Below are positions 1 through 44,951 of a stretch of 64,000 nt of DNA, piece after piece (within the stretch, counting starts at the first letter, position 1; each line of letters begins with the position of its first letter). The DNA is taken from the NCBI RefSeq assembly GCF_964204865.1, contig NC_135259.1:18734974-18798973 (forward strand), read 5' to 3'. Under the pieces are notes generated by a model. That model saw only the letters and a program-made list of their open reading frames with translations, made no database searches and had not been told where the DNA came from. The position numbers and the translations under genes were made by a program. The stretch is from Styela clava (Eukaryota; Chordata; Ascidiacea; Stolidobranchia; Styelidae).

Positions 1-32
1 AGGCGGCCCGGGTTCGATTCCCGGTCTGGGAA
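1..32 (+). tRNA. tRNA-Glu-TTC: tRNA-Glu(TTC), 3' part only
   Basis: The last 32 nt of the Glu unit (part of the anticodon stem, variable loop, T arm, acceptor and discriminator A) match consensus. The 5' part lies outside the window. Confidence 0.85.
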
Positions 33-345
33 ACTTTTCTTCAAGCAAAGATCAGGTCAGTTTTAGTTTTGAAACGTCAGAAAGATAATGGTGAAGCTTT
101 ACACTTTGGGCTGTATTTCTCGAGTGACTAAAGAATATATTACCTTAACAAAAACTTTCCAGTATGTGATTAGTGGGGCTTAACCTGATAATTTATCGAT
201 TTGACTGTTGTATTTGTTGAGGAGGATGATCATAAAGATGCATGCAACCATGGCAATGTCACTAGTACAATAATATAACAGCACAACACTTTCACCTAAC
301 TTCAAGTCACGTGTCATTCTTTCAGATTAACGGTTAAAAAGACAC

Positions 346-419
346 CGGCCAGTACGGGGATCGAACCCGCGACATTCGTGTTATTAGCACGACGCTCTAA
401 CCAACTGAGCTAACCGGCC
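346..419 (-). tRNA. tRNA-Ile-AAT: tRNA-Ile(AAT) variant
   Basis: 74 nt, anticodon AAT. The discriminator is G instead of A. One anticodon-stem wobble has become a Watson-Crick pair. Confidence 0.75.
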
Positions 420-694
420 ATATGTCCTATTGAATATAGTCAGCTAATTTCATTGAGACATTTCATTTGATATTTTAGTCACCATCTAATAATTGTGTGA
501 AGAAACATTAGAGGAACGAGATAGCATCTTTCAGTTACGAAGTACTAAATTCTGTCAGCGACATTTGTTTTTGTAGTATCTGTATGACTCTAGGAAACAG
601 AAATTAAAGATAGACTTGCTATTCCTTAATATTAAATGGATTACATCCGGGGAACACACAGATAGAAAGAATTCAATTTTTAAATAATAGACAG

Positions 695-711
695 CGTCCC
701 TGGGTGGGCTT
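695..711 (-). pseudogene. 17-nt remnant of tRNA-Asn
   Basis: Only the 3' end of Asn survives (acceptor and half of the T arm). It then joins ctgccaaagtaatcg, the flank of the next Glu. Further remnants are at 1464..1480, 7527..7543 and 8296..8312. Confidence 0.8.
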
Positions 712-729
712 CTGCCAAAGTAATCGTAT

Positions 730-801
730 TCCCAGATGGTCTAGGGGTTAGGATTCCTGGCTTTCACCCAGGCGGCCCGGGTTCGATTCCCGGTCTGGGA
801 A
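730..801 (+). tRNA. tRNA-Glu-TTC: tRNA-Glu(TTC), consensus
   Basis: 72 nt including discriminator A. The acceptor stem TCCCAGA/TCTGGGA is fully paired. The anticodon arm CCTGG-CTTTCAC-CCAGG gives anticodon TTC, decoding glutamate GAA codons. The B box is GGTTCGATTCC. The T4 stop is at 804..807. No CCA and no intron. This is the reference copy for the array. Confidence 0.95.
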
Positions 802-1114
802 ACTTTTCTTCAAGCAAAGATCAGGTCAGTTTTAGTTTTGAAACGTCAGAAAGACAATGGTGAAGCTTTACACTTTAGGCTGTATTTCTAGAGTGACTAA
901 AGATTATATTACCTTAACAAAAACTTTCCAGAATGTTATTAATGGGGTTTAACCTGATAATTAATCGATTTAACTGTTGTATTTGTTGAGGAGGATGATC
1001 ATAAAGATGCATGCAACCATGGCAATGTAACTAGTACAATAATATAACAGCACAACACTTTCACCTAACTTCAAGTCACGTGTCATTCTTTGAGATTAAC
1101 GGTTAAAAAGACAC

Positions 1115-1188
1115 TGGCCAGTACGGGGATCGAACCCGCGACATTCGCGTTATTAGCACGACGCTCTAACCAACTGAGCTAACCGGCC
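1115..1188 (-). tRNA. tRNA-Ile-AAT: tRNA-Ile(AAT), consensus
   Basis: 74 nt. The acceptor GGCCGGT/ACTGGCC has one G-T wobble, the D arm holds the A box TAGCTCAGTTGG, the anticodon loop CTAATAA gives AAT (read as inosine for Ile codons), and the B box is GGTTCGATCCC. It ends before gtgtcttttt. Reference Ile copy. Confidence 0.95.
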
Positions 1189-1463
1189 ATATGTCCTATC
1201 GAATATACTCAGCTAATTTCATTGAGACATTTCATTTGATATTTTAGTCACCATCTATTAATTGTGTGAAGAAACAGTAGAGGAACGAGATAGCATCTTT
1301 CAGTTACGAAGTACTAAATTCTGTCAGCGACATTTGTTTTTGTAGTATCTGTATGACTCTAGGAAACAGAAATTAAAGATAGACTTGCTATTCCTTAATA
1401 TTAAATGGATTTCATCCGGGGAACACACAGATAGAAAGGATTCAATTTTTAAATAATAGACAG

Positions 1464-1480
1464 CGTCCCTGGGTGGGCTT
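1464..1480 (-). pseudogene. 17-nt remnant of tRNA-Asn
   Basis: Same deletion junction as at 695..711. Confidence 0.75.
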
Positions 1481-1498
1481 CTGCCAAAGTAATCGTAT

Positions 1499-1570
1499 TC
1501 CCAGATGGTCTAAGGGTTAGGATTCCTGGCTTTCACCCAGGCGGCCCGGGTTCGATTCCCGGTCTGGGAA
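1499..1570 (+). tRNA. tRNA-Glu-TTC: tRNA-Glu(TTC), D-loop variant
   Basis: One change from consensus: taaggg for tagggg in the D loop. All stems paired. Confidence 0.88.
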
Positions 1571-1883
1571 ACTTTTCTTCAAACAAAGATCAGGTCAGTT
1601 TTAGTTTTGAAACGTCAGAAAGATAATGGTGAAGCTTTACACTTTGGGCTGTATTTCTCGAGTGACTAAAGAATATATTACCTTAACAAAAACTTTCCAG
1701 AATGTGATTAGTGGGGTTTAACCTGATAATTTATCGATTTAACTGTTGTAGTTATTAAGGAGGATGATCGTAAAGATGCATGCAAATATGGGAAAGTCAC
1801 GAGTACAATAATATAACAGCACAACACTTTCACCTAACTTCAAGTCACGTGTCATTCTTTGAGAATAACGGTTAAAAGGACAC

Positions 1884-1968
1884 TGGTCAGTACGGGGATC
1901 GAACCCGCGACATTCGCGTTATTAGCACGACGCTCTAACGGTAGTCTACCCAACTGAGCTAACCGCTA
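1884..1968 (-). pseudogene. tRNA-Ile(AAT)-like with 11-nt D-loop palindrome
   Basis: 85 nt. GGTAGTCTACC (near-perfect palindrome) is inserted in the D loop. The 5' acceptor strand reads TAGCGGT, leaving the three outer pairs mismatched against ACTGACC. Anticodon AAT and B box are intact, so it may be transcribed but is unlikely to mature. Confidence 0.8.
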
Positions 1969-2016
1969 ACCGCTGAGCTAATTTATTAGATAATACTTTT
2001 GCCAAAATAATCGTAT

Positions 2017-2088
2017 TCCCAGATGGTCTAGGGGTTAGTATTACTGGCTTTCACCCAGGCGGCCCGGGTTCGATTCCCGCTCTGGGAA
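2017..2088 (+). pseudogene. tRNA-Glu(TTC)-like, degenerate
   Basis: D stem and anticodon stem are damaged (ttagtattactgg) and the outer T-stem pair is lost (cccgc). The anticodon is still TTC. Confidence 0.75.
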
Positions 2089-2372
2089 ACTTTTCTTCAA
2101 GCAAAGATCAGGTCAGTTTTTGTTTTGAAACGTCAGAAAGATAACGGTGAAGCTTTACGGTTTGTTAATTTGTTTTTATAAAAGATTCGAAATGCCAATA
2201 TTTTTTGGTAATCTGCATTAAATTACATTGGTTTTAAATGATTTTCTCAACACAACAAAACACATAATTTATACATTTAAGAAAGAATTACATGAGTGTA
2301 CTACATTTAAGAAAGAATTACATGAAGTATTTAAAATACTGACCTCGAAGACAGCATGGATATTAGTTCAGT

Positions 2373-2444
2373 AGAGAGATGGACTAGGCGTTACGATTTC
2401 AGGCTCTCACCCATGCGGCCCGTGTTCTATTCCCGGTCAGGGAA
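2373..2444 (+). pseudogene. CTC Glu-like unit, 5' acceptor lost
   Basis: The 5' acceptor is replaced by tagaga after a deletion upstream. T stem cgtgttctattcccgg and acceptor tcaggga are also altered. Confidence 0.8.
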
Positions 2445-2800
2445 ACTCTTTATACCAAATATTATAAATTTTTGATTTCTTTCAGAAGGATCATTAGTGA
2501 GGTTTAATATGTCAAATCATTGATTGTTACAGTTGTAAAAGCGACAGTGAATGCGTAGGTTGTTCGTGAAGAACCATGTGGCCATTACAGTGTCAGCTTT
2601 ATATTAAATTAATTTTGGATAGCAATAGTTTTTCAGTGATATTTCCAACATAAAACAATGACATCAACTGTATACAGAAGACAGAAGTACATGAAGTATT
2701 GTAAATACTGACGAAGAAAACTACGCGGATATTACTTCAGTAGCGCTACATTGAGGTAACACCAATTTATTAGATAATACTTCTGCCAAAGTAATCGTAT

Positions 2801-2872
2801 TCCCAGATGGTCTAGGGGTTAGGATTCCTGGCTTTCACCCAGGCGGCCCTGGTTCGATTCCCGGTCTGGGAA
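2801..2872 (+). tRNA. tRNA-Glu-TTC: tRNA-Glu(TTC), T-stem variant
   Basis: One change, ggccctggttcg, gives a T-stem mismatch. Otherwise consensus. Confidence 0.75.
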
Positions 2873-3185
2873 ACTCTTCTTCAAACAAAGATCAGGTCAG
2901 TTTTAGTTTTGAAACGTCAGAAAGATAATGGTGAAGCTTTACACTTTAGGCTGTATTTCTAAAGTGACTAAAGAATATATTACCTTAAAAAAAACTTTCC
3001 AGAATGTGATTAATGGGGTTTAACCTGATAATTGGTCGATTTAACTGTTGTAGTTGTTAAGGAGGATGATCATAAAGATGCATGCAACCATGGCAATGTC
3101 ACGAGTACAATAATATAACAGCACAACACTTTCACCAAACTTCAAGTCACGTGTCATTGTTTGAGATTAACGGTTAAAAAGACAC
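2873..3185. repeat. Spacer type 1 (Glu to Ile), representative copy
   Basis: This ~313-bp spacer separates convergent Glu and Ile genes in every module. It begins with the Glu terminator, carries a conserved CACGTG (3148..3153), and ends with an AAAAA run that is the Ile terminator on the minus strand. Two alleles alternate: one with atgcatgcaaccatgg (nested palindromes) and one with atgcatgcaaatatggg. The second goes with the Ile copies that carry the D-loop insertion. No coding potential seen. Confidence 0.8.
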
Positions 3186-3259
3186 TGGCCAGTACGGGGA
3201 TCGAACCCGCGACATTCGCGTTATTAGCACGACGCTCTAACCAACTGAGCTAACCGGCC
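3186..3259 (-). tRNA. tRNA-Ile-AAT: tRNA-Ile(AAT), consensus
   Basis: Identical to the reference copy. It lies 276 bp downstream (minus strand) of Asn 3536..3627 with no TTTT between. Confidence 0.93.
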
Positions 3260-3535
3260 ATATGTCCTATTGAATATACTCAGCCAATTTCATTGCGACA
3301 TTTCATTTGATATTTTAGTCACCATCTATTAATTGTGTGAAGAAACTGAAGGGGAACGAGATAGCATCTTTCAGTTACAAAGTACTAAATTCTGTCAGCG
3401 ACATTTGTTTTTGTAGTATCTGTTTGTTTCTAGGAAACAGAAGTTAAAGATAGACTTGCTATTCCTTAATATTAAATGGATTTCATCCGAGGGAACACAC
3501 AGATAGAAAGGATTAATTTTTTAAATAATAGACAG
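3260..3535. repeat. Spacer type 2 (Ile to Asn), representative copy
   Basis: A ~276-bp spacer between the two minus-strand genes, with Asn upstream and Ile downstream. This copy has no run of four A on the plus strand, so no TTTT on the transcribed strand between Asn and Ile. In some other copies a single change (tctagaaaacag for tctaggaaacag) creates one. Confidence 0.8.
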
Positions 3536-3627
3536 CGTCCCTGGGTGGGCTTGAACCACCAACCTTTCGGTACCCATCAGTATAAGAGGTAACAGCCGAA
3601 CGCGCTGACCGATTGCGCGACAGAGAC
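3536..3627 (-). tRNA. tRNA-Asn-GTT: tRNA-Asn(GTT) with 18-nt intron
   Basis: 92 nt as DNA, 74 after removing cctcttatactgatgggt, which sits one base 3' of anticodon GTT. Acceptor GTCTCTG/CAGGGAC and anticodon stem TTCGG/CCGAA pair fully. This is one of four copies with an unbroken GCGC/GCGC D stem, but base 9 is C instead of G. The mature form closely resembles animal tRNA-Asn. No T4 stop follows closely. Confidence 0.88.
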
Positions 3628-3852
3628 CGACACGGACTATGGTTTGTTAATTTGTATTTATAAAAGGTTCGAAATGTCCAATATTTTCTGGTAATCTGCA
3701 TTAAATTACATTGGTTTTAAATGATTTTCTCAACACAACAAAACACATAATTTATACATTTAAGAAAGAATTACATGAAGTATTTAAAATACTGATCTCG
3801 AAGACATCATGGATATTATTTCAGTGGAGAGAGTAGGTCATTTCTGCCGATA
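3628..3852. repeat. Spacer type 3 (Asn to CTC Glu-like), representative copy
   Basis: A ~225-bp AT-rich spacer between the divergently oriented Asn and CTC units. It is the presumed 5' flank of both. No gene seen. Confidence 0.75.
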
Positions 3853-3924
3853 TCCCAGATGGACTAGGCGTTAGGATTTCAGGCTCTCACCCATGCGGCC
3901 CGGGTTCTATTCTCGGTCTGGGAA
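3853..3924 (+). pseudogene. CTC Glu-like unit
   Basis: 72 nt aligned to Glu. Acceptor paired, anticodon loop CTCTCAC. Three defects are shared by the whole CTC family: D stem A11 instead of T, anticodon stem TCAGG/CCATG with two mismatches, and T loop TTCTATT lacking the purine at 57. This copy also has tctcgg in the T stem. No T4 stop directly after it; the first lies ~20 nt downstream. Confidence 0.8.
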
Positions 3925-4280
3925 ACTCATTATACCAAATATTTTAAATTTTTGATTTCTTTTAGAAGGATCGTTAGTGAGGTTTTATATGTCAAATCAT
4001 TGATTGTTACAGTTGTAAAAGCGACAGTGACTGAGTAGGTTGTTCGTGAAGAACCATGTGGCCATTACAGTGTCTGCTTTATAATAAATTAATTTTGGAT
4101 AGGAATAGTTTTTCAGTGATATTTCCAACATAAAACAAAGACATCAGCTGTATACAGAAGAGAGAAATACATGAAGTATTTCAAATACTGACGAAGAAAA
4201 CTACGCGGATATTACTTCAGTAGCGCTACATTGAGGTAACACCAATTTATTAGATAATACTTCTGCCAAAGTAATCGTAT
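3925..4280. repeat. Spacer type 4 (CTC Glu-like to Glu), representative copy
   Basis: A ~356-bp spacer that is the 5' flank of the full-module Glu gene. It ends with a block shared by almost every Glu copy (accaatttattagataata, then gccaaagtaatcgtatt), which abuts the mature 5' end and is a candidate upstream element. No gene seen. Confidence 0.75.
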
Positions 4281-4351
4281 TCCCAGATGGTCTAGGGGTT
4301 AGGATTCCTGGCTTTCACCAGGCGGCCCGGGTTCGATTCCCGGTCTGGGAA
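4281..4351 (+). pseudogene. tRNA-Glu(TTC)-like, 1-nt deletion
   Basis: 71 nt. One C is missing after the anticodon (ctttcaccagg), which shifts the 3' anticodon stem. Confidence 0.75.
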
Positions 4352-4663
4352 ACTTTTCTTCAACAAAGATCAGGTCAGTTTTAGTTTTGAAACGTCAGAA
4401 AGATAATGGTGAAGCTTTACACTTTGGGCTGTATTTCTCGAGTGACTAAAGAATATATTACCTTAACAAAAACTTTCCAGAATGTGATTAGTGGGGTTTA
4501 ACCTGATAAATAATCGATTTAACTGTTGTAGTTATTAAGGAGGATGATAGTAAAGATGCATGCAAATATGGGAAAGTCACGAGTACAATAATATAACAGC
4601 ACAACACTTTCACCAAACTTCAAGTCACGTGTCATTCTTTGAGATTAACGGTTAAAAAGACAC

Positions 4664-4748
4664 TGGTCAGTACGGGGATCGAACCCGCGACATTCGCGTT
4701 ATTAGCACGACGCTCTAACGGTAGTCTACCCAACTGAGCTAATCGCTA
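4664..4748 (-). pseudogene. tRNA-Ile-like with D-loop palindrome
   Basis: Same layout as 1884..1968, with aatcgcta at the 5' acceptor. Confidence 0.8.
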
Positions 4749-4796
4749 ACCGCTGAGCTAATTTATTAGATAATACTTCTGCAAAAGTAATCGTAT

Positions 4797-4868
4797 TCCC
4801 AGATGGTCTAGGGGTCAGGATTCCTGGCTTTCACCCAGGCGGCCCGGGTTAGATTCCCGGTCTGGGAA
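4797..4868 (+). pseudogene. tRNA-Glu(TTC)-like, T-loop C56 lost
   Basis: The T loop reads TTAGATT, so the invariant C56 is A and the B box is hit. D loop has ggtcagga. Confidence 0.7.
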
Positions 4869-5181
4869 ACTTTTCTTCAAGCAAAGATCAGGTCAGTTTT
4901 AGTTTTGAAACGTCAGAAAGATAATGGTGAAGCTTTACACTTTAGGCTGTATTTCTAGAGTGACTAAAGATTATATTACCTTAACAAAAACTTTCCAGAA
5001 TGTTATTAATGGGGTTTAACCTGATAATTTATCGATTTAACTGTTGTATTTGTTAAGGAGGATGATCATAAAGATGCATGCAACCATGGCAATGTCACGA
5101 GTACAATAATATAACAGCACAACACTTTCACCTAACTTCAAGTCACGTGTCATTGTTTGAGATTAACGGGTAAAAAGGCAC

Positions 5182-5255
5182 TGGCCAGTACGGGGATCGA
5201 ACCCGCGACATTCGCGTTATTAGCACGACGCTCTAACCAACTGAGCTAACCGGCC
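5182..5255 (-). tRNA. tRNA-Ile-AAT: tRNA-Ile(AAT), consensus
   Basis: Matches the reference. No TTTT between it and Asn 5532..5623 upstream on the minus strand. Confidence 0.93.
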
Positions 5256-5531
5256 ATATGTCCTATTGAATATACTCAGCCAATTTCATTGAGACATTTC
5301 ATTTGATATTTTAGTCACCATCTATTAATTGTGTGAAGAAACTGAAGGGGAACGAGATAGCATCTTTCAGTTACGAAGTACTAAATTCTGTCGGCGACAT
5401 TTGTTTTTGTAGTATCTGTTTGTTTCTAGGAAACAGAAATTAAAGATAGACTTGCTATTCCTTAATATTAAATGGATTTCATCCGAGGGAACACACAGAT
5501 AGAAAGGATTCATTTTTTAAATAATAGACAG

Positions 5532-5623
5532 CGTCCCTGGGTGGGCTTGAACCACCAACCTTTCGGTACCCATCAGTATAAGAGGTAACAGACGAACGCG
5601 CTGACCGATTGCGCCACAGAGAC
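5532..5623 (-). tRNA. tRNA-Asn-GTT: tRNA-Asn(GTT) with intron, stem defect
   Basis: D stem intact (GCGC). Base 31 is T instead of G, breaking the pair that closes the anticodon loop. Intron unchanged. Confidence 0.75.
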
Positions 5624-5848
5624 CGACACGGACTATGGTTTGTTAATTTGTATTTATAAAAGGTTCGAAATGTCCAATATTTTTTGGTAATCTGCATTAA
5701 ATTACATTGGTTTTAAATGATTTTCTCAACACAACAAAACACATAATTTATACATTTAAGAAAGAATTACATGAAGTATTTAAAATACTGACCTCGAAGA
5801 CAGCATCGATATTAGTTCAGTGGAGAGAGTAGGTCCTTTCTGCCGATA

Positions 5849-5920
5849 TCCCAGATGGACTAGGCGTTAGGATTTCAGGCTCTCACCCATGCGGCCCGGG
5901 TTCTATTCCCGGTCTGGGAA
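5849..5920 (+). pseudogene. CTC Glu-like unit
   Basis: Family consensus with the full acceptor and a paired T stem (cccgg). Confidence 0.8.
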
Positions 5921-6275
5921 ACTCTTTATACCAAATATTTTAAATTTTTGATTTCTTTCAGAAGGATCATTAGTGAGGTTTTATATGTCAAATCATTGAT
6001 TGTTACAGTTGTAAAAGCAACAGTGACTGGGTAGGTTGTTCGTGAAGAACCATGTGGACATTACAGTGTCAGCTTTATAATAAATTAATTTTGGATAGGA
6101 ATAGTTTTTCAGTGATATTTCCAACATAAAAAAAGACATCAGCTGTATACAGAAGACAGAAGTACATGAAGTATTTAAAATACTGACGAAGAAAACTACG
6201 CGGATATTACTTCAGTAGCGCTACATTGAGGTAACACCAATTTATTAGATAATACTTCTGCCAAAGTAATCGGAT

Positions 6276-6347
6276 TCCCAGATGGTCTAGGCGTTAGGAT
6301 TCCTGGCTTTCACCCAGGCGGCCCGGGTTCGATTCCCGGTCTGGGAA
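6276..6347 (+). tRNA. tRNA-Glu-TTC: tRNA-Glu(TTC), D-loop variant
   Basis: Single change taggcgtt in the D loop, as in the CTC family. All stems paired. Confidence 0.88.
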
Positions 6348-6660
6348 ACTTTTCTTCAAACAAAGATCAGGTCAGTTTTAGTTTTGAAACGTCAGAAAGA
6401 TAATGGTGAAGCTTTACACTTTGGGCTGTATTTCTCGAGTAAATAAAGAATATATTACCTTAACAAAAACTTTCCAGAATGTGATTAGTGGGGTTTAACC
6501 TGATAATTTATCGATTTAACTGTTGTAGTTATTAAGGAGGATGATAGTAAAGATGCATGCAAATATGGGAAAGTCACGAGTACAATAATATAACAGCACA
6601 ACACTTTCACCTAACTTCAAGACACGTGTCATTCTTTGAGATTAACGGTTAAAAGGACAC

Positions 6661-6745
6661 TGGTCAGTACGGGGATCGAACCCGCGACGTTCGCGTTATT
6701 AGCACGACGCTCTAACGGTAGTCTACCCAACTGAGCTAACCGCTA
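6661..6745 (-). pseudogene. tRNA-Ile-like with D-loop palindrome
   Basis: As 1884..1968, plus gacgttcg in the variable region. Confidence 0.8.
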
Positions 6746-6793
6746 ACCGCTGAGCTAATTTATTAGATAATACTTCTGCCAAAGTAATCGTAT

Positions 6794-6865
6794 TCCCAGA
6801 TGGTCTAGGGGTTAGGATTCCTGGCTTTCACCCAGGCGGCCCGGGTTCGATTCCCGGTCTGGGAA
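6794..6865 (+). tRNA. tRNA-Glu-TTC: tRNA-Glu(TTC), consensus
   Basis: Identical to the reference Glu copy. Confidence 0.95.
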
Positions 6866-7178
6866 ACTTTTCTTCAAGCAAAGATCAGGTCAGTTTTAGT
6901 TTTGAAACGTCAGAAAGATAATGGTGAAGCTTTACACTTTAGGCTGTATTTCTAGAGTGACTAAAGATTATATTACCTTAACAAAAACTTTCCAGAATGT
7001 TATTAATGGGGTTTAACCTGATAATTTATCGATTTAACTGTTGTATTTGTTAAGGAGGATGATCATAAAGATGCATGCAACCATGGCAATGTCACGAGTA
7101 CAATAATATAACAGCACAACACTTTCACCTAACTTCAAGTCACGTGTCATTCTTTGAGATTAACGGTTAAAAAGACAC

Positions 7179-7251
7179 TGGCCAGTACGGGGATGGACCC
7201 GCGACATTCGCGTTATTAGCACGACGCTCTAACCAACTGAGCTAACCGGCC
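7179..7251 (-). pseudogene. tRNA-Ile-like, T-loop deletion
   Basis: 73 nt. ggatggaccc for ggatcgaaccc shortens the T loop and breaks the B box. The rest is consensus. Confidence 0.8.
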
Positions 7252-7526
7252 ATATGTCCTATTGAATATAGTCAGCTAATTTCATTGAGACATTTCATTT
7301 GATATTTTAGTCACCATCTAATAATTGTGTGAAGAAACAGTAGAGGAACGAGATAGCATCTTTCAGTTACGAAGTACTAAATTCTGTCAGCGACATTTGT
7401 TTTTGTAGTATCTGTATGACTCTAGGAAACAGAAATTAAAGATAGACTTGCTATTCCTTAATATTAAATGGATTTCATCCGGGGAACACACAGATAGAAA
7501 GGATTCAATTTTTAAATAATAGACAG

Positions 7527-7543
7527 CGTCCCTGGGTGGGCTT
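7527..7543 (-). pseudogene. 17-nt remnant of tRNA-Asn
   Basis: Same junction as at 695..711. Confidence 0.75.
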
Positions 7544-7561
7544 CTGCCAAAGTAATCGTAT

Positions 7562-7633
7562 TCCCAGATGGTCTAGGGGTTAGGATTCCTGGCTTTCACC
7601 CAGGCGGCCCGGGTTCGATTCCCGGTCTGGGAA
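7562..7633 (+). tRNA. tRNA-Glu-TTC: tRNA-Glu(TTC), consensus
   Basis: Identical to the reference copy, which is its duplicate at -6832 bp. Confidence 0.95.
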
Positions 7634-7946
7634 ACTTTTCTTCAAGCAAAGATCAGGTCAGTTTTAGTTTTGAAACGTCAGAAAGACAATGGTGAAGCTT
7701 TACACTTTAGGCTGTATTTCTAGAGTGACTAAAGATTATATTACCTTAACAAAAACTTTCCAGAATGTTATTAATGGGGTTTAACCTGATAATTAATCGA
7801 TTTAACTATTGTATTTGTTGAGGAGGATGATCATAAAGATGCATGCAACCATGGCAATGTAACTAGTATAATAATATAACAGCACAACACTTTCACCTAA
7901 CTTCAAGTCACGTGTCATTCTTTGAGATTAACGGTTAAAAAGACAC

Positions 7947-8020
7947 TGGCCAGTACGGGGATCGAACCCGCGACATTCGCGTTATTAGCACGACGCTCTA
8001 ACCAACTGAGCTAACCGGCC
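7947..8020 (-). tRNA. tRNA-Ile-AAT: tRNA-Ile(AAT), consensus
   Basis: Identical to the reference Ile copy. Confidence 0.94.
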
Positions 8021-8295: not shown

Positions 8296-8312
8296 CGTCC
8301 CTGGGTGGGCTT
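8296..8312 (-). pseudogene. 17-nt remnant of tRNA-Asn
   Basis: Same junction as at 695..711. Confidence 0.75.
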
Positions 8313-34297: not shown

Positions 34298-34299
<2 letters not shown>

Positions 34300-36907: not shown

Positions 36908-37263
36908 ACTCTTTAATACCAAATATTATAAATTTTTGATTTCTTCAGAAGGATCATTAGTGAGGTTTTATATGTCAAATCATTGATTTTTACAGTTGTA
37001 AAAGCGACAGTGACTGGGTAGGTTGTTCGTGAAGAACCATGTGGCCATTACAGTGTCAGCTTTATAATAAATTAATTTTGAATAGCAATAGTTTTTCAGT
37101 GATATTTCCAACATAAAACAAAGACATCAACTGTATACAGAAGACAGAAGTACATGAAGTATTTCAACTACTGACGAAGAAAACTACGCGGATATTACTT
37201 CAGTAGCGCTACATTGAGGTAACACCAATTTATTAGATAATACTTCTGCCAAAGTAATCGTGT

Positions 37264-37335
37264 TCCCAGATGGTCTAGGGGTTAGGATTCCTGGCTTTCA
37301 CCCAGGCGGCCCGGGTTCGATTCCCGGTCTGGGAA
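37264..37335 (+). tRNA. tRNA-Glu-TTC: tRNA-Glu(TTC), consensus
   Basis: Identical to the reference copy. 5' flank aatcgtgt. Confidence 0.95.
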
Positions 37336-37648
37336 ACTTTTCTTCAAGCAAAGATCAGGTCAGTTTTAGTTTTGAAACGTCAGAAAGATAATGGTGAAGC
37401 TTTACACTTTAGGCTGTATTTCTAGAGTGACTAAAGATTATATTACCTTAACAAAAACTTTCCAGAATGCTATTAATGGGGTTTAACCTGATAATTTATC
37501 GATTTAACTGTTGTAGTTGTTAAGGAGGATGATCATAAAGATGCATGCAACCATGGCAATGTCACGAGTACAATAATATAACAGCACAACACTTTCACCT
37601 AACTTCAAGTCACGTGTCATTCTTTGAGATTAACGGTTAAAAAGACAC

Positions 37649-37722
37649 TGGCCAGTACGGGGATCGAACCCGCGACATTCGCGTTATTAGCACGACGCTC
37701 TAACCAACTGAGCTAACCGGCC
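37649..37722 (-). tRNA. tRNA-Ile-AAT: tRNA-Ile(AAT), consensus
   Basis: Identical to the reference Ile copy. Confidence 0.94.
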
Positions 37723-37997
37723 ATAATTCCTATTAAATATACTCAGCAAATTTCATTGCGACATTTCATTTAATATTTTAGTCACCATCTATTAATGGTG
37801 TGAAGAAACAGTAGAGGAACGAGATAGCATCTTTCAGTTACGAAGTACTAAATTCGGTCAGCGACATTTGTTTTTGTGGTATCTGTTTGACTCTAGGAAA
37901 CAGAAATTAAAGATAGACTTGCTATTCCTTAATATTAAATGGATTTCATCCGAGGGAACACACAGATAGAAAGGATTCATTTGTAAATAATAGACAG

Positions 37998-38089
37998 CGT
38001 CCCTGGGTGGGATTGAACCACCAACCTTTAGGTACCCATCAGTATAGTAGGTAACAGCCGAACGCGCTGATCGATTGCGCCACAGAGAC
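37998..38089 (-). tRNA. tRNA-Asn-GTT: tRNA-Asn(GTT) with intron, variant
   Basis: D stem intact (gcgcc on +). One anticodon-stem mismatch (tttaggtaccc), D-loop G19 changed (ctgatcg), and a changed intron (agtatagtagg). Confidence 0.68.
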
Positions 38090-38288
38090 CGACACGGAAT
38101 ATGGTTTGTTAAATTGTTTTCATAAAAGATTCAAAATGTCCAATATTTTTGGGTAATCGGCATTAAATTACATTGGTTTTAAATGATTATCTCAACACAA
38201 CAAAACACATAATTTATACATTTAGGAAAGAATTACATGGAAGTATTTAAAATACTGACCTCGAAGACAGCATGGATATTAGTTCAGT

Positions 38289-38353
38289 AGAGAGATGGAC
38301 TAGGCGTTAGGATTTCAGGCTCTCACCCATGCGGCCCGGGTTCTATCTGGGAA
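38289..38353 (+). pseudogene. CTC Glu-like unit, doubly truncated
   Basis: 5' acceptor lost, and seven bases deleted in the T arm (ttctatctggg). Confidence 0.82.
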
Positions 38354-38709
38354 ACTTTTTATACCAAATATTATAAATTTTTGATTTCTTTCAGAAGGAT
38401 CATTAGTGAGGTTTTATATGTCAAATCATTGATTGTTACAGTTGTAAAAGCGACAGTGACTGGGTAGGTTGTTCGTGAAGAACCATGTGGCCATTACAGT
38501 GTCAGCTTTATAATATATTAATTTTGTATAGCAATAGTTTTTCAGTGATATTTCCAACATAAAACAAAGACATCAACTGTATACGGAAGACAGAAGTACA
38601 TGAAGTATTTCAACTACTGACGAAGAAAACTACGCGGATATTACTTCAGTAGCGCTACATTGAGGTAACACCAATTTATTAGATAATACTTCTGCCAAAG
38701 TAATCGTGT

Positions 38710-38781
38710 TCCCAGATGGTCTAGGGGTTAGGATTCCTGGCTTTCACCCAGGCGGCCCGGGTTCGTTTCCCGGTCTGGGAA
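38710..38781 (+). tRNA. tRNA-Glu-TTC: tRNA-Glu(TTC), A58 lost
   Basis: T loop TTCGTTT: the near-invariant A58 is T, hitting the B box. Rest consensus. Confidence 0.55.
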
Positions 38782-38926
38782 ACTTTTCTTCAAGCAAAGA
38801 TCAGGTCAGTTTTAGTTTTGAAACGTCAGAAAGCTAATGGTGAAGCTTCACACTTTAGGCTGTATTTCTCGAGTGACTAAAGAATATATTACCTCAACAA
38901 AAACTTTCCAGAATGTGATTAGTGGG

Positions 38927-39162
38927 GTTTAACCTGATAATTTATCGATTTAACTGTTGTAGTTGTTAAGGAGGATGATCATAAAGATGCATGCAATCAT
39001 GGCAATGTCACGAGTACAATAATATAACAGCACAACACTTTCACGTTTAACCTGAAAATTTATCGATTTAACTGTTGTAGTAGTTAAGGAGGATGATCGT
39101 AAAGATGCATGCAACCATGGCAATGTCACGAGTACAATAATACAACAGCACAACACTTTCAC
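38927..39162. repeat. 118-bp spacer tandem duplication
   Basis: gtttaacctga begins at 38927 and again at 39045. The two 118-bp halves of spacer type 1 differ by a few bases. The duplication makes a 70-codon minus-strand frame that I do not regard as a gene. Confidence 0.85.
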
Positions 39163-39213
39163 CTAACTTCAAGTCAGGTGTCATTCTTTGAGATTAACGG
39201 TTAAAAAAGACAC

Positions 39214-39287
39214 TGGCCAGTACGGGGATCGAACCCGCGACATTCGCGTTATTAGCACGACGCTCTAACCAACTGAGTTAACCGGCC
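39214..39287 (-). tRNA. tRNA-Ile-AAT: tRNA-Ile(AAT), D-stem mismatch
   Basis: gagttaacc on + changes G10 to A. The 5187-bp duplicate at 44401 is consensus here. Confidence 0.65.
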
Positions 39288-39320
39288 ATATGTTCTATTG
39301 AATATACTCAGCCAATTTCA

Positions 39321-39501
39321 TTAAGACTCTTACAGTAATTGTCTTCAAGAAGGAAGTTGTTTAAATGTTATTTTTTTAACTAAGAAAGTACTTTTTTCAC
39401 ACGAGTCAAAAGCGCTGATAGGAGAGTGCTAAAATCGCCGTTGGGCTATTCCTTATGGAAAAGTGGAATCCGTCAAAGCATATAGAGTGAGGGAGAAGTT
39501 T
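39321..39501. repeat. ~180-bp unrelated insertion in spacer type 2
   Basis: Sequence from aagactcttacag to gagggagaagtt interrupts spacer type 2 between ttcatt and tttcatttgat. I do not recognise it. Its left ~80 bp also occurs at 19768, 24870, 26061, 32062 and 34642, where it joins directly to tcaatctgcatt downstream of the missing Asn gene. Confidence 0.7.
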
Positions 39502-39735
39502 TTCATTTGATATTTTAGTCACCATGGATTATTTGTGTGAAGAAACAGTAGAGGAACGAGATAGCATCTTTCAGTTACAAAGTACTAAATTCTGTCAGCA
39601 ACATTTGTTTTTGTAGTATCTGTTTGACTCTAGGTAACAGAAATTAAAGATAGACTTGCTATTCCTTAATATTAAATGGATTTCATCCAAGGGAACACAC
39701 AGATAGAAAGGATTCATTTTTTAAATAATAGACAG

Positions 39736-39827
39736 CGTCCCTGGGTGGGCTTGAACTACCAACCTTTTGGTACCAATCAGTATAAGAGGTAACAGCCGAA
39801 CGCGCTGACCGATTGTGCCACAGAGAC
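39736..39827 (-). tRNA. tRNA-Asn-GTT: tRNA-Asn(GTT) with intron, several changes
   Basis: gaactaccaa in the T stem, ccttttggtaccaatcag over anticodon stem and intron, A12-C23. Confidence 0.6.
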
Positions 39828-40052
39828 CGACACGGACTGTGGTTTGTTAATTTGTTTTTATAAAAGATTCGAAATTTCCAATATTTTTTGGTAATCTGCA
39901 TTAAATTACATTGGTTTTAAATGATTTTCTCAACACAACAAAACACATAATTTATACATTTAAGAAAGAATTACATGAAGTATTTAAAATACTGACCTCG
40001 AAGACATCATGGATATTAGTTCAGTGGAGAGAGTAGGTCATTTCTGCCGATA

Positions 40053-40124
40053 TCCCAGATGGACTAGGCGTTAGGATTTCAGGCTCTCACCCATGCGGCC
40101 CGGGTTCTATTCCCGGCCTGGGAA
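40053..40124 (+). pseudogene. CTC Glu-like unit
   Basis: Full acceptor with one change (cccggcctggga). Confidence 0.76.
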
Positions 40125-40479
40125 ACTCTTTATACCAAATATTTTAAATTTTTGATTTCTTTCAGAAGGATCTTTAGTGAGGTTTTATATGTCAAATCAT
40201 TGATTGTTACAATTGCAAAAGCGACAGTGACTGAGTAGGTTGTTCGTGAAGAACCATGTGGCCATTACAGTGTCGCTTTATAATAAATTAATTTTGGATA
40301 GGAATAGTTTTTCAGTGATATTTCCAACATAAAACAAAGACATCAGCCGTATACAGAAGACAGAAATACATGAAGTATTTCAAATACTGACGAAGAAAAC
40401 TACGCGGATATTACTTCAGTAGCGCTACATTGAGGTAACACCAATTTATTAGATAATACTTCTGCCAAAGTAATCGTAT

Positions 40480-40551
40480 TTCCAGGTGGTCTAGGGGTTA
40501 GGATTCCTGGCTTTCACCCGGGCGGCCCGGGTTCGATTCCCGGTCTGGAAA
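40480..40551 (+). tRNA. tRNA-Glu-TTC: tRNA-Glu(TTC) with compensated acceptor change
   Basis: 5' strand TTCCAGG and 3' strand TCTGGAA: the C2-G71 pair has become T2-A71 on both sides. A7 to G gives a G-T wobble. Anticodon stem CCTGG/CCGGG keeps pairing through T-G. Despite five changes all stems still form. Confidence 0.8.
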
Positions 40552-40864
40552 AGTTTTCTTCAAACAAAGATCAGGTCAGTTTTAGTTTTGAAACCTCAGA
40601 AAGATAATGGCGAAGCTTTACACTTTGGGCTGTATTTCTCGAGTGACTAAAGAATATATTACCTTAACAAAAACTTTCCAGAATGTGATTAGTGGGGTTT
40701 AACCTGATAATTTATCGATTTAACTGTTGTAGTTGTTAAGGAGGATGATCGTAAAGATGCATGCAAATATGGGAAAGTCACGAGTACAATAATATAACAG
40801 CACAACACTTTCACCTAACTTCAAGTCACGTGTCATTCTTTGAGATTAACGTATAAAAAGACAC

Positions 40865-40949
40865 TGCTCAGTACGGGGATCGAACCCGCGACATTCGCGT
40901 TACTAGCACGACGCTCTAACGGTAGTCTACCCAACTGAGCTAACCGCTA
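40865..40949 (-). pseudogene. Ile-derived unit with palindrome and anticodon AGT, duplicate
   Basis: 5187-bp duplicate of 35678..35762. Confidence 0.78.
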
Positions 40950-40997
40950 ACCGCTTAGCTAATTTATTAGTTAATACTTTTGCAAAAGTAATCGGAT

Positions 40998-41069
40998 TCC
41001 CAGATGGTCTAGGGGTTAGGATTCCTGGCTTTCACCCAGGCGGCCCGGGTTCGATTCCCGGTCTGGGAA
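40998..41069 (+). tRNA. tRNA-Glu-TTC: tRNA-Glu(TTC), consensus
   Basis: Identical to the reference copy. Confidence 0.95.
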
Positions 41070-41382
41070 ACTTTTCTCCAAACAAAGAGCAGGTCAGTTT
41101 TAGTTTTGAAACGTCAGAAAGATAATGGTGAAGTTTTACACTTTAGGCTCTATTTCTAGAGTGACTAAAGAATATATTACCTTAACAAAAACTTTCCAGA
41201 ATGTTATTAATGGGGTTTAATCTGATAATTTATCAATTTAACTATTGTAGTTGTTATGGAGGATGATCATGAAGATGCATGCAACCATGGCAATGTCATG
41301 AGTACAATAATATAACAGCACAACACTTTCACCTAACTTCAAGTCACGTGTCATTCTTTGAGATTAACGGTTAAAAAGACAC

Positions 41383-41456
41383 TGGCCAGTACGGGGATCG
41401 AACCCGCGACATTCGCGTTATTAGCACGACGCTCTAACCAACTGAGCTAACCGGCC
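41383..41456 (-). tRNA. tRNA-Ile-AAT: tRNA-Ile(AAT), consensus
   Basis: Identical to the reference Ile copy. Confidence 0.94.
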
Positions 41457-41732
41457 ATATGTCCTATTGAATATACTCAGCTAATTTCATTGAGACATTT
41501 CATTTTATATTTTAGTCACCATCTATTACTTGTGTGAAGAAACAGTAGAGGAACGAGATAGCATCTTTCAGTTACGAAGTACTAAATTCTGTCAGCGACA
41601 TTTGTTTTTGTAGTATCTGTTTGACTCTGGGAAACAGAAATGAAAGATAGACTTGCTATTCCTTAATAATAAATGGACTTCATCCGAGGGAACACACAGA
41701 TAGAAAGGATTCAATTTTTAAATAATAGACAG

Positions 41733-41824
41733 CGTCCCTGGGTGGGCTTGAACCACCAACCTTTCGTTACCCATCAGTATAAGAGGTAACAGCCGAACGC
41801 GCTGACCGATTGTGCCACAGAGAC
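41733..41824 (-). tRNA. tRNA-Asn-GTT: tRNA-Asn(GTT) with intron, stem defect
   Basis: Duplicate of 36546..36637 with the same tttcgttaccc change. Confidence 0.65.
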
Positions 41825-42022
41825 CGACACGGACTATGGTTTGTTAATTTGTTTTTATAAAAGATTCAAAATTTCCAATATTTTTTGGTAATCTGCATTA
41901 AATTACATTGGTTTTAAATGATTTTCTCAACACAACAAAACACATAATTTATACATTTAAGAAAGAATTACATGAAGTATTTAAAATACTGACCTCGAAA
42001 AAGGGATGGATATTAGTTCAGT

Positions 42023-42094
42023 AGAGAGATGGACTAGGCGTTAGGATTTCAGGCTCTCACCCATGCGGCCCGGGTTCTAATCCCGGTCTGGGAA
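42023..42094 (+). pseudogene. CTC Glu-like unit, 5' acceptor lost
   Basis: Duplicate of 36836..36907. Confidence 0.8.
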
Positions 42095-42450
42095 ACTCTT
42101 TAATACCAAATATTATAAATTTTTGATTTCTTCAGAAGGATCATTAGTGAGGTTTTATATGTCAAATCATTGATTTTTACAGTTGTAAAAGCGACAGTGA
42201 CTGGGTAGGTTGTTCGTGAAGAACCATGTGGCCATTACAGTGTCAGCTTTATAATAAATTAATTTTGAATAGCAATAGTTTTTCAGTGATATTTCCAACA
42301 TAAAACAAAGACATCAACTGTATACAGAAGACAGAAGTACATGAAGTATTTCAACTACTGACGAAGAAAACTACGCGGATATTACTTCAGTAGCGCTACA
42401 TTGAGGTAACACCAATTTATTAGATAATACTTCTACCAAAGTAATCGTGT

Positions 42451-42522
42451 TCCCAGATGGTCTAGGGGTTAGGATTCCTGGCTTTCACCCAGGCGGCCCG
42501 GGTTCGATTCCCGGTCTGGGAA
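42451..42522 (+). tRNA. tRNA-Glu-TTC: tRNA-Glu(TTC), consensus
   Basis: Identical to the reference copy. 5' flank has cttctaccaaag. Confidence 0.95.
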
Positions 42523-42835
42523 ACTTTTCTTCAAGCAAAGATCAGGTCAGTTTTAGTTTTGAAACGTCAGAAAGATAATGGTGAAGCTTTACACTTTAGG
42601 CTGTATTTCTAGAGTGACTAAAGATTATATTACCTTAACAAAAACTTTCCAGAATGCTATTAATGGGGTTTAACCTGATAATTTATCGATTTAACTGTTG
42701 TAGTTGTTAAGGAGGATGATCATAGAGATGCATGCAACCATGGCAATGTCACGAGTACAATAATATAACAGCACAACACTTTCACCTAACTTCAAGTCAC
42801 GTGTCATTCTTTGAGATTAACGGTTAAAAAGACAC

Positions 42836-42909
42836 TGGCCAGTACGGGGATCGAACCCGCGACATTCGCGTTATTAGCACGACGCTCTAACCAACTGAGC
42901 TAACCGGCC
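42836..42909 (-). tRNA. tRNA-Ile-AAT: tRNA-Ile(AAT), consensus
   Basis: Identical to the reference Ile copy. Confidence 0.94.
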
Positions 42910-43184
42910 ATAATTCCTATTAAATATACTCAGCAAATTTCATTGCGACATTTCATTTGATATTTTAGTCACCATCTATTAATGGTGTGAAGAAACAGTA
43001 GAGGAACGAGATAGCATCTTTCAGTTACGAAGTACTAAATTCGGTCAGCGACATTTGTTTTTGTGGTATCTGTTTGACTCTAGGAAACAGAAATTAAAGA
43101 TAGACTTGCTATTCCTTAATATTAAATGGATTTCATCCGAGGGAACACACAGATAGAAAGGATTCATTTGTAAATAATAGACAG

Positions 43185-43276
43185 CGTCCCTGGGTGGGAT
43201 TGAACCACCAACCTTTAGGTACCCATCAGTATAGTAGGTAACAGCCGAACGCGCTGATCGATTGCGCCACAGAGAC
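43185..43276 (-). tRNA. tRNA-Asn-GTT: tRNA-Asn(GTT) with intron, variant
   Basis: Duplicate of 37998..38089 with the same variants. Confidence 0.68.
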
Positions 43277-43475
43277 CGACACGGAATATGGTTTGTTAAA
43301 TTGTTTTCATAAAAGATTCAAAATGTCCAATATTTTTGGGTAATCGGCATTAAATTACATTGGTTTTAAATGATTTTCTCAACACAACAAAACACATAAT
43401 TTATACATTTAAGAAAGAATTACATGGAAGTATTTAAAATACTGACCTCGAAGACAGCATGGATATTAGTTCAGT

Positions 43476-43540
43476 AGAGAGATGGACTAGGCGTTAGGAT
43501 TTCAGGCTCTCACCCATGCGGCCCGGGTTCTATCTGGGAA
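43476..43540 (+). pseudogene. CTC Glu-like unit, doubly truncated
   Basis: Duplicate of 38289..38353. Confidence 0.82.
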
Positions 43541-43896
43541 ACTTTTTATACCAAATATTATAAATTTTTGATTTCTTTCAGAAGGATCATTAGTGAGGTT
43601 TTATATGTCAAATCATTGATTGTTACAGTTGTAAAAGCGACAGTGACTGGGTAGGTTGTTCGTGAAGAACCATGTGGCCATTACAGTGTCAGCTTTATAA
43701 TATATTAATTTTGTATAGCAATAGTTTTTCAGTGATATTTCCAACATAAAACAAAGACATCAACTGTATACGGAAGACAGAAGTACATGAAGTATTTCAA
43801 CTACTGACGAAGAAAACTACGCGGATATTACTTCAGTAGCGCTACATTGAGGTAACACCAATTTATTAGATAATACTTCTGCCAAAGTAATCGTGT

Positions 43897-43968
43897 TCCC
43901 AGATGGTCTAGGGGTTAGGATTCCTGGCTTTCACCCAGGCGGCCCGGGTTCGTTTCCCGGTCTGGGAA
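43897..43968 (+). tRNA. tRNA-Glu-TTC: tRNA-Glu(TTC), A58 lost
   Basis: Duplicate of 38710..38781 (TTCGTTT). Confidence 0.55.
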
Positions 43969-44113
43969 ACTTTTCTTCAAGCAAAGATCAGGTCAGTTTT
44001 AGTTTTGAAACGTCAGAAAGCTAATGATGAAGCTTCACACTTTAGGCTGTATTTCTCGAGTGACTAAAGAATATATTACCTCAACAAAAACTTTCCAGAA
44101 TGTGATTAGTGGG

Positions 44114-44349
44114 GTTTAACCTGATAATTTATCGATTTAACTGTTGTAGTTGTTAAGGAGGATGATCATAAAGATGCATGCAATCATGGCAATGTCACGA
44201 GTACAATAATATAACAGCACAACACTTTCACGTTTAACCTGAAAATTTATCGATTTAACTGTTGTAGTTGTTAAGGAGGATGATCGTAAAGATGCATGCA
44301 ACCATGGCAATGTCACGAGTACAATAATACAACAGCACAACACTTTCAC
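44114..44349. repeat. 118-bp spacer tandem duplication, second copy
   Basis: Counterpart of 38927..39162 at +5187 bp. It has gttgttaag where the first copy reads gtagttaag. Confidence 0.85.
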
Positions 44350-44400
44350 CTAACTTCAAGTCAGGTGTCATTCTTTGAGAGTAACGGTTAAAAAAGACAC

Positions 44401-44474
44401 TGGCCAGTACGGGGATCGAACCCGCGACATTCGCGTTATTAGCACGACGCTCTAACCAACTGAGCTAACCGGCC
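44401..44474 (-). tRNA. tRNA-Ile-AAT: tRNA-Ile(AAT), consensus; last complete tRNA of the array
   Basis: Identical to the reference Ile copy. Confidence 0.94.
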
Positions 44475-44507
44475 ATATGTTCTATTGAATATACTCAGCC
44501 AATTTCA

Positions 44508-44688
44508 TTAAGACTCTTACAGTAATTGTCTTCAAGAAGGAAGTTGTTTAAATGTTATTTTTTTAACTAAGAAAGTACTTTTTTCACACGAGTCAAAAGC
44601 GCTGATAGGAGAGTGCTAAAATCGCCGTTGGGCTATTCCTTATGGAAAAGTGGAATCCGTCAAAGCATATAGAGTGAGGGAGAAGTTT
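44508..44688. repeat. ~180-bp unrelated insertion, duplicate copy
   Basis: The +5187-bp counterpart of 39321..39501, essentially identical. Confidence 0.7.
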
Positions 44689-44922
44689 TTCATTTGATAT
44701 TTTAGTCACCATGGATTATTTGTGTGAAGAAACAGTAGAGGAACGAGATAGCATCTTTCAGTTACAAAGTACTAAATTCTGTCAGCGACATTTGTTTTTG
44801 TAGTATCTGTTTGACTCTAGGTAACAGAAATTAAAGATAGACTTGCTATTCCTTAATATTAAATGGATTTCATCCGAGGGAACACACAGATAGAAAAGAT
44901 TCATTTTGTAAATAATAGACAG

Positions 44923-44951
44923 CGTCCCTGGGTGGGCTTGAACCCCCAACC
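44923..44951 (-). pseudogene. tRNA-Asn 3' end cut by the array boundary
   Basis: 29 nt from the discriminator to the variable loop, then an abrupt change to unrelated AT-rich sequence. It marks the right edge of the array. Confidence 0.88.

Follow-up and report, generated by a model that had tools for sequence, protein, structure and literature searches.

Tandem arrays of tRNA genes are already known from Entamoeba, zebrafish, Xenopus, humans, and Arabidopsis. In Entamoeba, multi-gene tRNA units form long tandem arrays, thought to be homogenized by concerted evolution; some tRNA genes are dispersed, and an intron-bearing tRNA-Leu is arrayed in some species (PMC2652664). Almost all tRNA genes of E. 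histolytica are arrayed, with short tandem repeats between them, and no clear pseudogenes were seen there. The tandem arrays of Xenopus are oocyte specific (PMC11500080), zebrafish Chr4R combines a strong local concentration of tRNA genes with the target-specific mobile elements Dewa and Dada (PMC11075544, PMC3706591, and PMC2888827), and the human 1q23.3 tRNA VNTR is a homogeneous tandem repeat (PMC4041453). The Ser-Tyr-Tyr and Cys clusters of Arabidopsis consist of tandem multi-gene units, 27 in almost 40 kb (PMC10701932).

Since arrays as such are known from these organisms, the array described here, on chromosome C13 of the tunicate Styela clava, is a new variant. A GH6 exon on C9 (35.4 bits; cutoff, 27) points to tunicates, among animals the group marked by a fusion of cellulose synthase and GH6; the assembly gave no COX1 match. 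The literature searched, with subscription papers outside its scope, included no title dealing with a tRNA array in tunicates. Unlike those of E. histolytica, the C13 array has genes in mixed orientation, separated by complex spacers a few hundred bases long, as well as a pseudogene within the module and many decayed copies. It resembles the Xenopus arrays as a tandem array in an animal, but the Glu and Ile consensus genes it carries have the same sequence as dispersed genes. The local gene excess and target-specific mobile elements of zebrafish have counterparts here, but zebrafish concentrates its tRNA genes on one chromosome arm, whereas separate isoacceptor arrays lie on C2, C9, C10, and C13 of this genome. 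The human repeat is similarly homogeneous but has a GC-rich, CTCF-bound unit of 7.3 kb in 9 to 43 copies (PMC4041453), and the Arabidopsis clusters, similar in their tandem multi-gene units, are about 10-fold shorter and reported to be largely silent (PMC10701932).

We propose that the locus is probably a tandem array organized like rDNA, which serves as a source of tRNA-Glu(UUC), tRNA-Ile(AAU), and intron-containing tRNA-Asn(GUU) and is under concerted evolution, with the 64,000-nucleotide stretch analyzed (the window) covering its decaying edge. An invertebrate chordate would then have its tRNA genes arranged in the manner of rDNA, at least four of its chromosomes bearing arrays that differ in isoacceptor.

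Features of the window at the right-hand edge of the array (positions are those of the window)
Feature	Position	Strand	Remarks
Right-hand edge of C13 Glu/Ile/Asn tRNA array	1..44951	.	Array matches run from C13:18334596 to 18779924
tRNA-Ile-AAT unit, near-consensus	345..420	-	ARAGORN, Rfam, BLAST
tRNA-Glu-TTC, exact consensus	729..803	+	TTTT within next 20 nt
769-bp Glu-Ile module	729..1497	+	Class without core 504-675 and 928-1634
tRNA-Ile pseudogene, 11-nt D-loop insertion	1885..1965	-	Amplified
tRNA-Asn-GTT	3535..3626	-	18-nt intron at canonical 37/38 site
Fourth unit, Glu-like (CTC)	3853..3924	+	Anticodon-stem mismatches
Higher-order repeat	4796..6792	+	1479-bp Glu-Ile-Asn-GluC module + 518-bp Glu-Ile* module
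118-bp tandem duplication in Glu-Ile spacer	44114..44349	.	Second instance 38927-39162
Truncated tRNA-Asn, end point of array	44922..44951	-	
Flanking DNA without tRNA genes	44952..64000	.	

ARAGORN called 82 tRNA genes, of which the last ends at 44475, leaving 44476-64000 free of calls, and all 81 matches to the Rfam tRNA model above the gathering score in the window fall before 44475. BLAST with four seed units found 129 places, including a 34-nt stub at position 1; the 128 further units, close to the 126 counted in the first-pass annotation, comprise 44 Glu-TTC (+), 41 Ile-AAT (-), 24 broken Glu-like (+), and 19 intron-containing Asn-GTT (-) units, and about 80% or more of the seed is covered in 120 of them. 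The annotation's three isoacceptors plus a degenerate fourth stand, with the third type now identified as intron-bearing tRNA-Asn. Its claim of about 24 perfect Glu or Ile copies was right, as 10 of 44 Glu and 14 of 41 Ile units match the consensus exactly (Asn, 0 of 19). Each unit type keeps one strand throughout the window, as had been claimed. The fixed order that was also claimed amounts to no more than a restricted repertoire of permitted transitions (nine kinds of neighbor step, against a mean of 15.9 and a minimum of 15 in 2,000 shuffles of unit order), with many deletion variants. Nor do the units fill 45 kb: they occupy 21% of the 44951 bases, the remainder being shared spacer. Outside the window, one Asn unit elsewhere in the array lies on the plus strand.

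Of 71 Glu-like units, 69 share the same altered anticodon arm, among them 23 of the 24 within the window, and the Ile pseudogene with the D-loop insertion recurs seven times in the window and 14 times in a 184-kb stretch. Two further members of the 769-bp module class were examined. Minimum-energy folds of the Glu, spliced Asn, and Glu-like units, computed for single-unit RNAs, were not clean cloverleaves.

An array of more than 45 kb was correctly recognized, and it ends sharply on the right, but position 1 is not its start, as matches run about 400 kb further left. In all it spans ∼445 kb rightwards from C13:18.335 Mb, its left border being defined by the first Asn match only; it was read continuously over 145 kb at the right end and otherwise through the loci L055, L056, L069, L077, and L084 and search matches. 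To the left of the window the organization is a regular module of 1.60 or 1.65 kb (Glu forward, Ile and Asn reversed, broken Glu forward), which is repeated head to tail in c13 28720-73035 (1.60/1.654 kb) with intact genes of several isoacceptors. Core modules (n = 28) have a mean pairwise identity of 97.95% (98.3% between neighbors), compared with 96.7% among 13 edge modules of 1.48 kb. Over >90% of their length, 59 of 62 edge modules are collinear, with deletions, with the 1654-bp core consensus; of the exceptions, two have an internal duplication and one has a single backward jump. Edge modules probably arose from the core module by deletion, although the 172 bp missing from the edge could alternatively be a gain in the core.

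Almost all exact copies of the consensus genes in the genome lie in this array: 97 of 98 Glu matches, the remaining one being isolated on C3 with unrelated flanks, and 58 of 63 Ile matches, with five elsewhere. For Asn, a pattern that fixes the exon letters beforehand placed 117 of 124 matches in the array and 3 elsewhere among the matches listed, the remaining 4 being on the plus strand. Because they were counted by exact patterns, these totals are lower bounds. A comparable array of Lys genes on C2 packs 73 of 83 exact copies into 121 kb, and others carry Ser/Ala on C9 and Cys on C10. The few dispersed genes may serve ordinary cells, with the arrays as an extra supply at high demand; that the demand arises in the oocyte and early embryo is a guess by analogy with Xenopus.

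Potentially functional genes might also be held epigenetically off in a silent heterochromatic array, which we consider unlikely but a serious alternative. Long homogeneous repeats are the usual targets of silencing. The Arabidopsis tRNA clusters provide a precedent (PMC10701932). However, germline CpG methylation, the one mark examined, left no clear sign: the CpG observed/expected ratio is 0.89 to 0.91 in the array (right flank, 0.98; consensus spacer, 0.80), and CpG sites are little more mutable than other C/G sites (transitions at 9 of 104 versus 39 of 515; transversions at 12 of 104 versus 38 of 515).

The first-pass annotation likened the locus to a satellite with a tRNA module as its monomer, and the structure fits: the array is long and tandem, with 1.6-kb modules 98% alike, recurring deletion variants and other signatures of unequal exchange, a worn edge, and nearly neutral polymorphism within a domain. 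Strong constraint on gene bodies was expected within the core and was not found there (non-CpG π, 0.0128 in the three genes versus 0.0209 in the rest, with 52 of 1,653 circular shifts equally low); by this measure, copies within one domain drift almost freely. Such weak per-copy constraint would suit a selfish or inert satellite of tRNA-shaped monomers, amplified neutrally and with genes that are not needed, as would the almost uniformly broken fourth unit, the Asn units that lack a terminator, and the existence of dispersed copies of all three genes.

Comparison between domains argues against this reading, which we regard as improbable. Full-length left-domain Glu bodies (n = 6) are 90 to 99% identical to the core, whereas their flanks, at 58 to 73%, are at or modestly above the level of shuffled sequence (mean, 56%; maximum, 69%; 50 shuffles of one flank); in the single left-domain Asn gene compared, the exons reach 97%, the intron 61%, and the flanks 60 to 64%. 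These genes (one for Asn and, of the 12 Glu matches in the left domain, the 6 that are full length) were found by similarity, and decayed copies are therefore underrepresented; six partial L055/L056 matches of 37 to 64 nt, 92 to 97% identical over the matched part, were left out of the Glu count. The contrast in the sampled sequences between 97.95% within the core and 58 to 73% in flanks between domains is that expected of concerted evolution.

Signals for processing and termination bear on the same question. Array Asn genes carry two different 18-nt introns, both at the canonical site, and the two families sort by domain with one exception among the matches listed, at 18520399. Both introns, and that of a C3 gene, have G at -3, which could pair with C32. 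Array Asn exons differ at one or more positions from the intron-less dispersed genes. Of 98 right-part Glu units, 93 have TTTT in the 20 nt downstream, as do 8 of 9 left-domain 3′ ends. In the right domain, 58 of 59 Asn units have no TTTT within 60 nt, so that many may be poorly made; TTTT is present in 3 of 3 dispersed Asn genes and in both L055 copies. The two intron families and the terminator-less lineage are natural markers by which expression of the array could be measured directly. The Glu and Ile consensus genes are identical to dispersed genes, Glu and Asn bodies are conserved across domains, and both the intron site and the terminators of Glu are retained. The monomer therefore resembles a functional unit of several genes and is more like rDNA than a selfish satellite, and the satellite description is incomplete without the core, the domains, and the dispersed genes.

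An assembly artefact, in which a few units were inflated or scrambled by the assembler, is very improbable: tandem repeats are error prone and an 11.27-kb block is duplicated almost without change, but the array is embedded in a contig of 22.5 Mb, is divided into distinct domains, shows insertions, private variants, and a graded edge, and has counterparts on three other chromosomes. SINE-like retro-amplification is extremely improbable: although animal genomes often owe their large tRNA-like families to tRNA-derived SINEs, the spacers here are collinear up to the next gene, strands are fixed across modules, and A-tails are absent from the 3′ flanks most common for each of the four unit types.

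Under the rDNA-like reading, the module would be copied by unequal crossing-over and gene conversion, so that mutant units (the Glu-like pseudogene, the D-loop-insert Ile, and the terminator-less Asn) would be amplified alongside intact ones, with selection keeping just enough good copies per array. The arrays offer a natural test of how selection maintains a multicopy gene while single copies decay almost freely.

The most novel by-product is a LINE inserted in tRNA anticodon arms within the arrays. Its 17 copies of ≥99% identity represent eight independent insertion sites, seven in tRNA genes and one in tRNA-array spacer, as expected of a target-specific non-LTR retrotransposon with young copies in one kind of target; Pfam identifies reverse transcriptase and endonuclease/exonuclease/phosphatase-family domains. 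One copy interrupts a tRNA-Ser-GCT gene in the C9 array; in front of it stand the flank proper to that array and the 5′ half of the interrupted gene, TAATCC is repeated on both sides, and 60 flank bases are identical to those of a normal unit. At their 5′ ends, the copies on C13 and C4, whose neighbors are Glu/Ile and Val genes, have this same tRNA-Ser 5′ half together with a tRNA-Lys-like piece. We give an even chance to the idea that the tRNA arrays are a counterpart of rDNA with an "R2" of their own, which would enter anticodon arms of many isoacceptors, survive in redundant arrays, and be copied from transcripts starting in the disrupted host tRNA gene. Alongside R1/R2 in rDNA, the arrays and a tRNA-targeting LINE would provide a second model system for the parasites that exploit multicopy genes. 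In the right flank, the frames at 46227 and 62984 matched no Pfam family over the cutoff; by eye, that at 46227 resembles a piece of LINE reverse transcriptase. A LINE also lies in the 11.27-kb block that is present twice, almost identical.

Units shaped like tRNA genes fill positions 1 to 44951 of the window, and ARAGORN and Rfam find no tRNA gene in the remaining 19 kb. BLAST with four seeds recovered 128 units in addition to a stub at position 1. On the plus strand are 44 Glu-TTC and 24 Glu-like units, on the minus strand 41 Ile-AAT and 19 Asn-GTT units, and no unit of any of the four types is reversed among the 128. Nine kinds of neighbor step were observed, against ∼16 in shuffled orders. 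The first-pass annotation, which described a satellite-like 45-kb array of 126 units of three isoacceptors and a degenerate fourth, was accurate in substance. The Glu and Ile units score well as tRNAs (ARAGORN, Rfam) and are ordinary genes; the Asn-GTT unit carries an 18-nt insertion that falls precisely at the canonical intron site, between positions 37 and 38. The fourth unit is Glu-like, with anticodon CTC and two mismatches in the anticodon stem; across the 145 kb read, its altered anticodon arm is common to 69 of 71 such units and its altered T loop to 66 of 71, which marks it as a pseudogene copied along with the module.

The array is real, and it is larger and more orderly than is visible in the window (C13:18734974-18798973 in a genome of 376.6 Mb). 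The exact 71-nt Glu gene has 98 genome matches, of which 97 lie on a single strand of C13 between 18345233 and 18777494, the remaining copy being an isolated gene on C3 with flanks unrelated to the array. The exact 73-nt Ile gene has 63 matches, 58 on a single strand at C13:18455964-18779447 and 5 elsewhere. A genome-wide search with an Asn pattern that left the length of the intron gap free gave 124 matches; among those listed, 117 fall in the array from C13:18334596 on (1 on the plus strand), and those outside are two intron-less genes (C3:18387044 and C4:23707793) and one C3 gene with a different intron, an outside tally that is a lower bound, as 4 further plus-strand matches lie beyond those listed. 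From the first and last Glu, Ile, or Asn match, the array length is estimated at ∼445 kb, of which the right-hand 145 kb was read continuously and the remainder as small samples.

Left of the window, the regular module is Glu> <Ile <Asn GluC> (GluC being the Glu-like unit), Glu-to-Glu spacing is mostly 1.60 or 1.65 kb, and 28 modules of this core have a mean identity of 97.95%. Module lengths range from 507 to 1770 bp in the window and the adjoining 16 kb to the left; 59 of these 62 edge modules are collinear with the 1654-bp core consensus and bear deletions, and the other three comprise two with an internal duplication and one with a single jump back. Thirteen modules of a 1.48-kb kind share 96.7% identity. 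A 172-bp difference from the core, common to edge modules, may be a loss in the edge or a gain in the core. Exact consensus copies drop toward the edge for Glu (17/36 in the core and 10/44 in the window) and Asn (19/36 and 0/19) but not for Ile (14/38 and 14/41), and the 10 Glu and 14 Ile copies account for the ∼24 perfect copies reported initially. This pattern, a homogenized middle and a decaying border, is usual for a tandem array. The array left of the window also holds a LINE, duplicated together with its surroundings.

Coordinates of features in the window and elsewhere in the assembly (C, numbered contigs; L, stretches read from them)
Feature	Position	Strand	Remarks
LINE in C13 array, 5.65 kb	L009:2255-7905 (C13:18637228-18642878)		Relatives L061-L071, L077, L081-L084
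Gypsy-like LTR element inserted in tRNA array	About C13:18708500-18716100 (L016-L017)		Identified by eye
289-aa hydrophobic open frame	Window 62984-63853		Multi-pass-membrane-protein-like
Lys-TTT array	C2:15882721-16004088		73/83 exact copies inside; strand switch near 15.99-16.00 Mb
Cys-GCA array	C10:6887900-6926000		8 Cys genes within 4.6 kb
Ser-GCT/Ala-TGC/Ser-CGA array	C9:21065749-21188998		At least 32 Ser-half matches; one 1.5-kb piece read
tRNA with anticodon TCA in Cys array	L051:2202-2275	+	ARAGORN call tRNA-SeC
Dispersed tRNA-Asn	C3:2415999-2416047 (L057)		Third intron, 16 nt

Within the core, the three genes show slightly lower variability than the remainder of the module (non-CpG π of 0.0128 versus 0.0209; when the annotation was shifted circularly, 52 of 1653 shifts gave π as low), and any single copy is therefore hardly protected. 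The longer-term picture differs, in that gene bodies appear conserved between domains while flanks diverge. Six full-length Glu genes of the left domain (samples L055 and L056) are 90 to 99% identical to the core consensus, whereas their flanks reach 67 to 73% (3′) and 58 to 66% (5′), against a baseline of 56% on average and 69% at most in 50 shuffles of one 3′ flank. Six partial matches in these samples (92 to 97% over 37 to 64 nt) were left out of this comparison, and decayed left-domain copies are undercounted because copies were found by similarity. In one left-domain Asn gene, 3% of exon positions but 39% of intron positions depart from the right-domain consensus.

In the right part, 93 of 98 Glu units have TTTT within the next 20 nt, as do, despite different flanks, 8 of 9 left-domain Glu 3′ ends; TTTT follows 56 of 91 Ile units. 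Among right-domain Asn units, 58 of 59 lack TTTT within 60 nt, whereas T runs follow all three dispersed Asn genes and both L055 Asn genes, so that an impaired Asn lineage has probably been amplified in the right domain. Intron differences among the dispersed genes suggest intron gain or turnover within one tRNA family. All three Asn introns (left domain, right domain, and C3 gene) have a G at −3 that can pair with C32, the positions of the A-I pair. The A-I pair is described as a feature of eukaryotic pre-tRNA (PMC4090602).

The best-supported reading of the C13 array is an rDNA-like supply array, in which recombination would copy the module, and selection acting on overall output would keep the consensus functional even as many copies drift. 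That the Glu and Ile consensus sequences are identical to dispersed genes argues that the products would be ordinary tRNAs. The main functional rival is a silent array, for which Arabidopsis provides a described case (PMC10701932), but CpG mutation patterns in the C13 array give it no clear support. For a supply array, an oocyte or maternal role is a guess by analogy with oocyte-specific tandem tRNA arrays in Xenopus (PMC11500080) and the maternal role proposed for zebrafish Chr4R tRNA genes (PMC11075544). The array is a variant of the tandem tRNA gene arrays already described, and together with the LINE it may form a new host-parasite pair.

ORF1 of this non-LTR element has a zinc-knuckle match below the Pfam cutoff, and ORF2 has endonuclease-family and reverse transcriptase domains. 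Its 3′ end matches at least 43 places, 17 of them at ≥99% identity, a lower bound from 40 scored of 176 candidates. The 3′ flanks of all 17 young copies were read and compared by eye with tRNA genes: an A-rich tail is followed by tRNA-Ser-GCT, two tRNA-Val, tRNA-Lys-CTT, tRNA-Cys, and tRNA-Lys-TTT, with junctions in or beside the anticodon arm. The tRNA-Cys and tRNA-Lys-TTT insertions are represented by 4 and 5 copies, respectively, of one event each, and three copies are one amplified insertion in a Glu-Ile spacer on C13. In one further C13 copy the 3′ junction is rearranged and lacks an A-tail, but the 5′ end, 5.5 kb away, lies in the anticodon arm of a Glu gene. Among the matches listed, 7 of 8 independent young sites are within tRNA genes. 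Of 9 older relatives (83 to 90%) checked among the other 26, one lies within a tRNA-Ile gene and eight have no tRNA gene within about 700 bp.

In front of the copy in the C9 Ser array stand the native flank of that array and the 5′ half of the interrupted tRNA gene itself, and an identical tRNA-Ser 5′ half is found at the 5′ end of the C13 and C4 copies. This is expected if the LINE is copied from transcripts begun in the host tRNA gene; alternatively, the tRNA piece may have been joined to the LINE during insertion. Zebrafish Dewa is described as targeting a tRNA-Leu spacer and Dada DNA transposons as inserting into tRNA genes in the anticodon-loop region (PMC3706591, PMC8869645). Young copies of the LINE here lie in anticodon arms of Ser, Val, Lys, Cys, and Glu genes, and no LINE across anticodon arms of many isoacceptors appeared among the literature matches listed.

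The TCA tRNA of the Cys array resembles a Trp tRNA; its anticodon would read UGA, and it is perhaps a drifted pseudogene. Several small contigs carry tRNA matches (C54, C98, C125, C131, C137, C138, C154, C191, C216, C276, C296, C318, C340, and C360), spaced 44 to 46 kb apart on those with more than one; in the two read, C216 and C318 (L052 and L053), the tRNA is tRNA-Gly-TCC with CCA encoded, and the contigs resemble concatenated copies of an organellar or symbiont genome. The hydrophobic frame in the right flank of the array matched no Pfam family above the cutoff, and a related piece was seen by eye at 56133 to 56528. C9 also carries an exon of the GH6 family, which suggests a tunicate, GH6 being known among animals as a tunicate feature.
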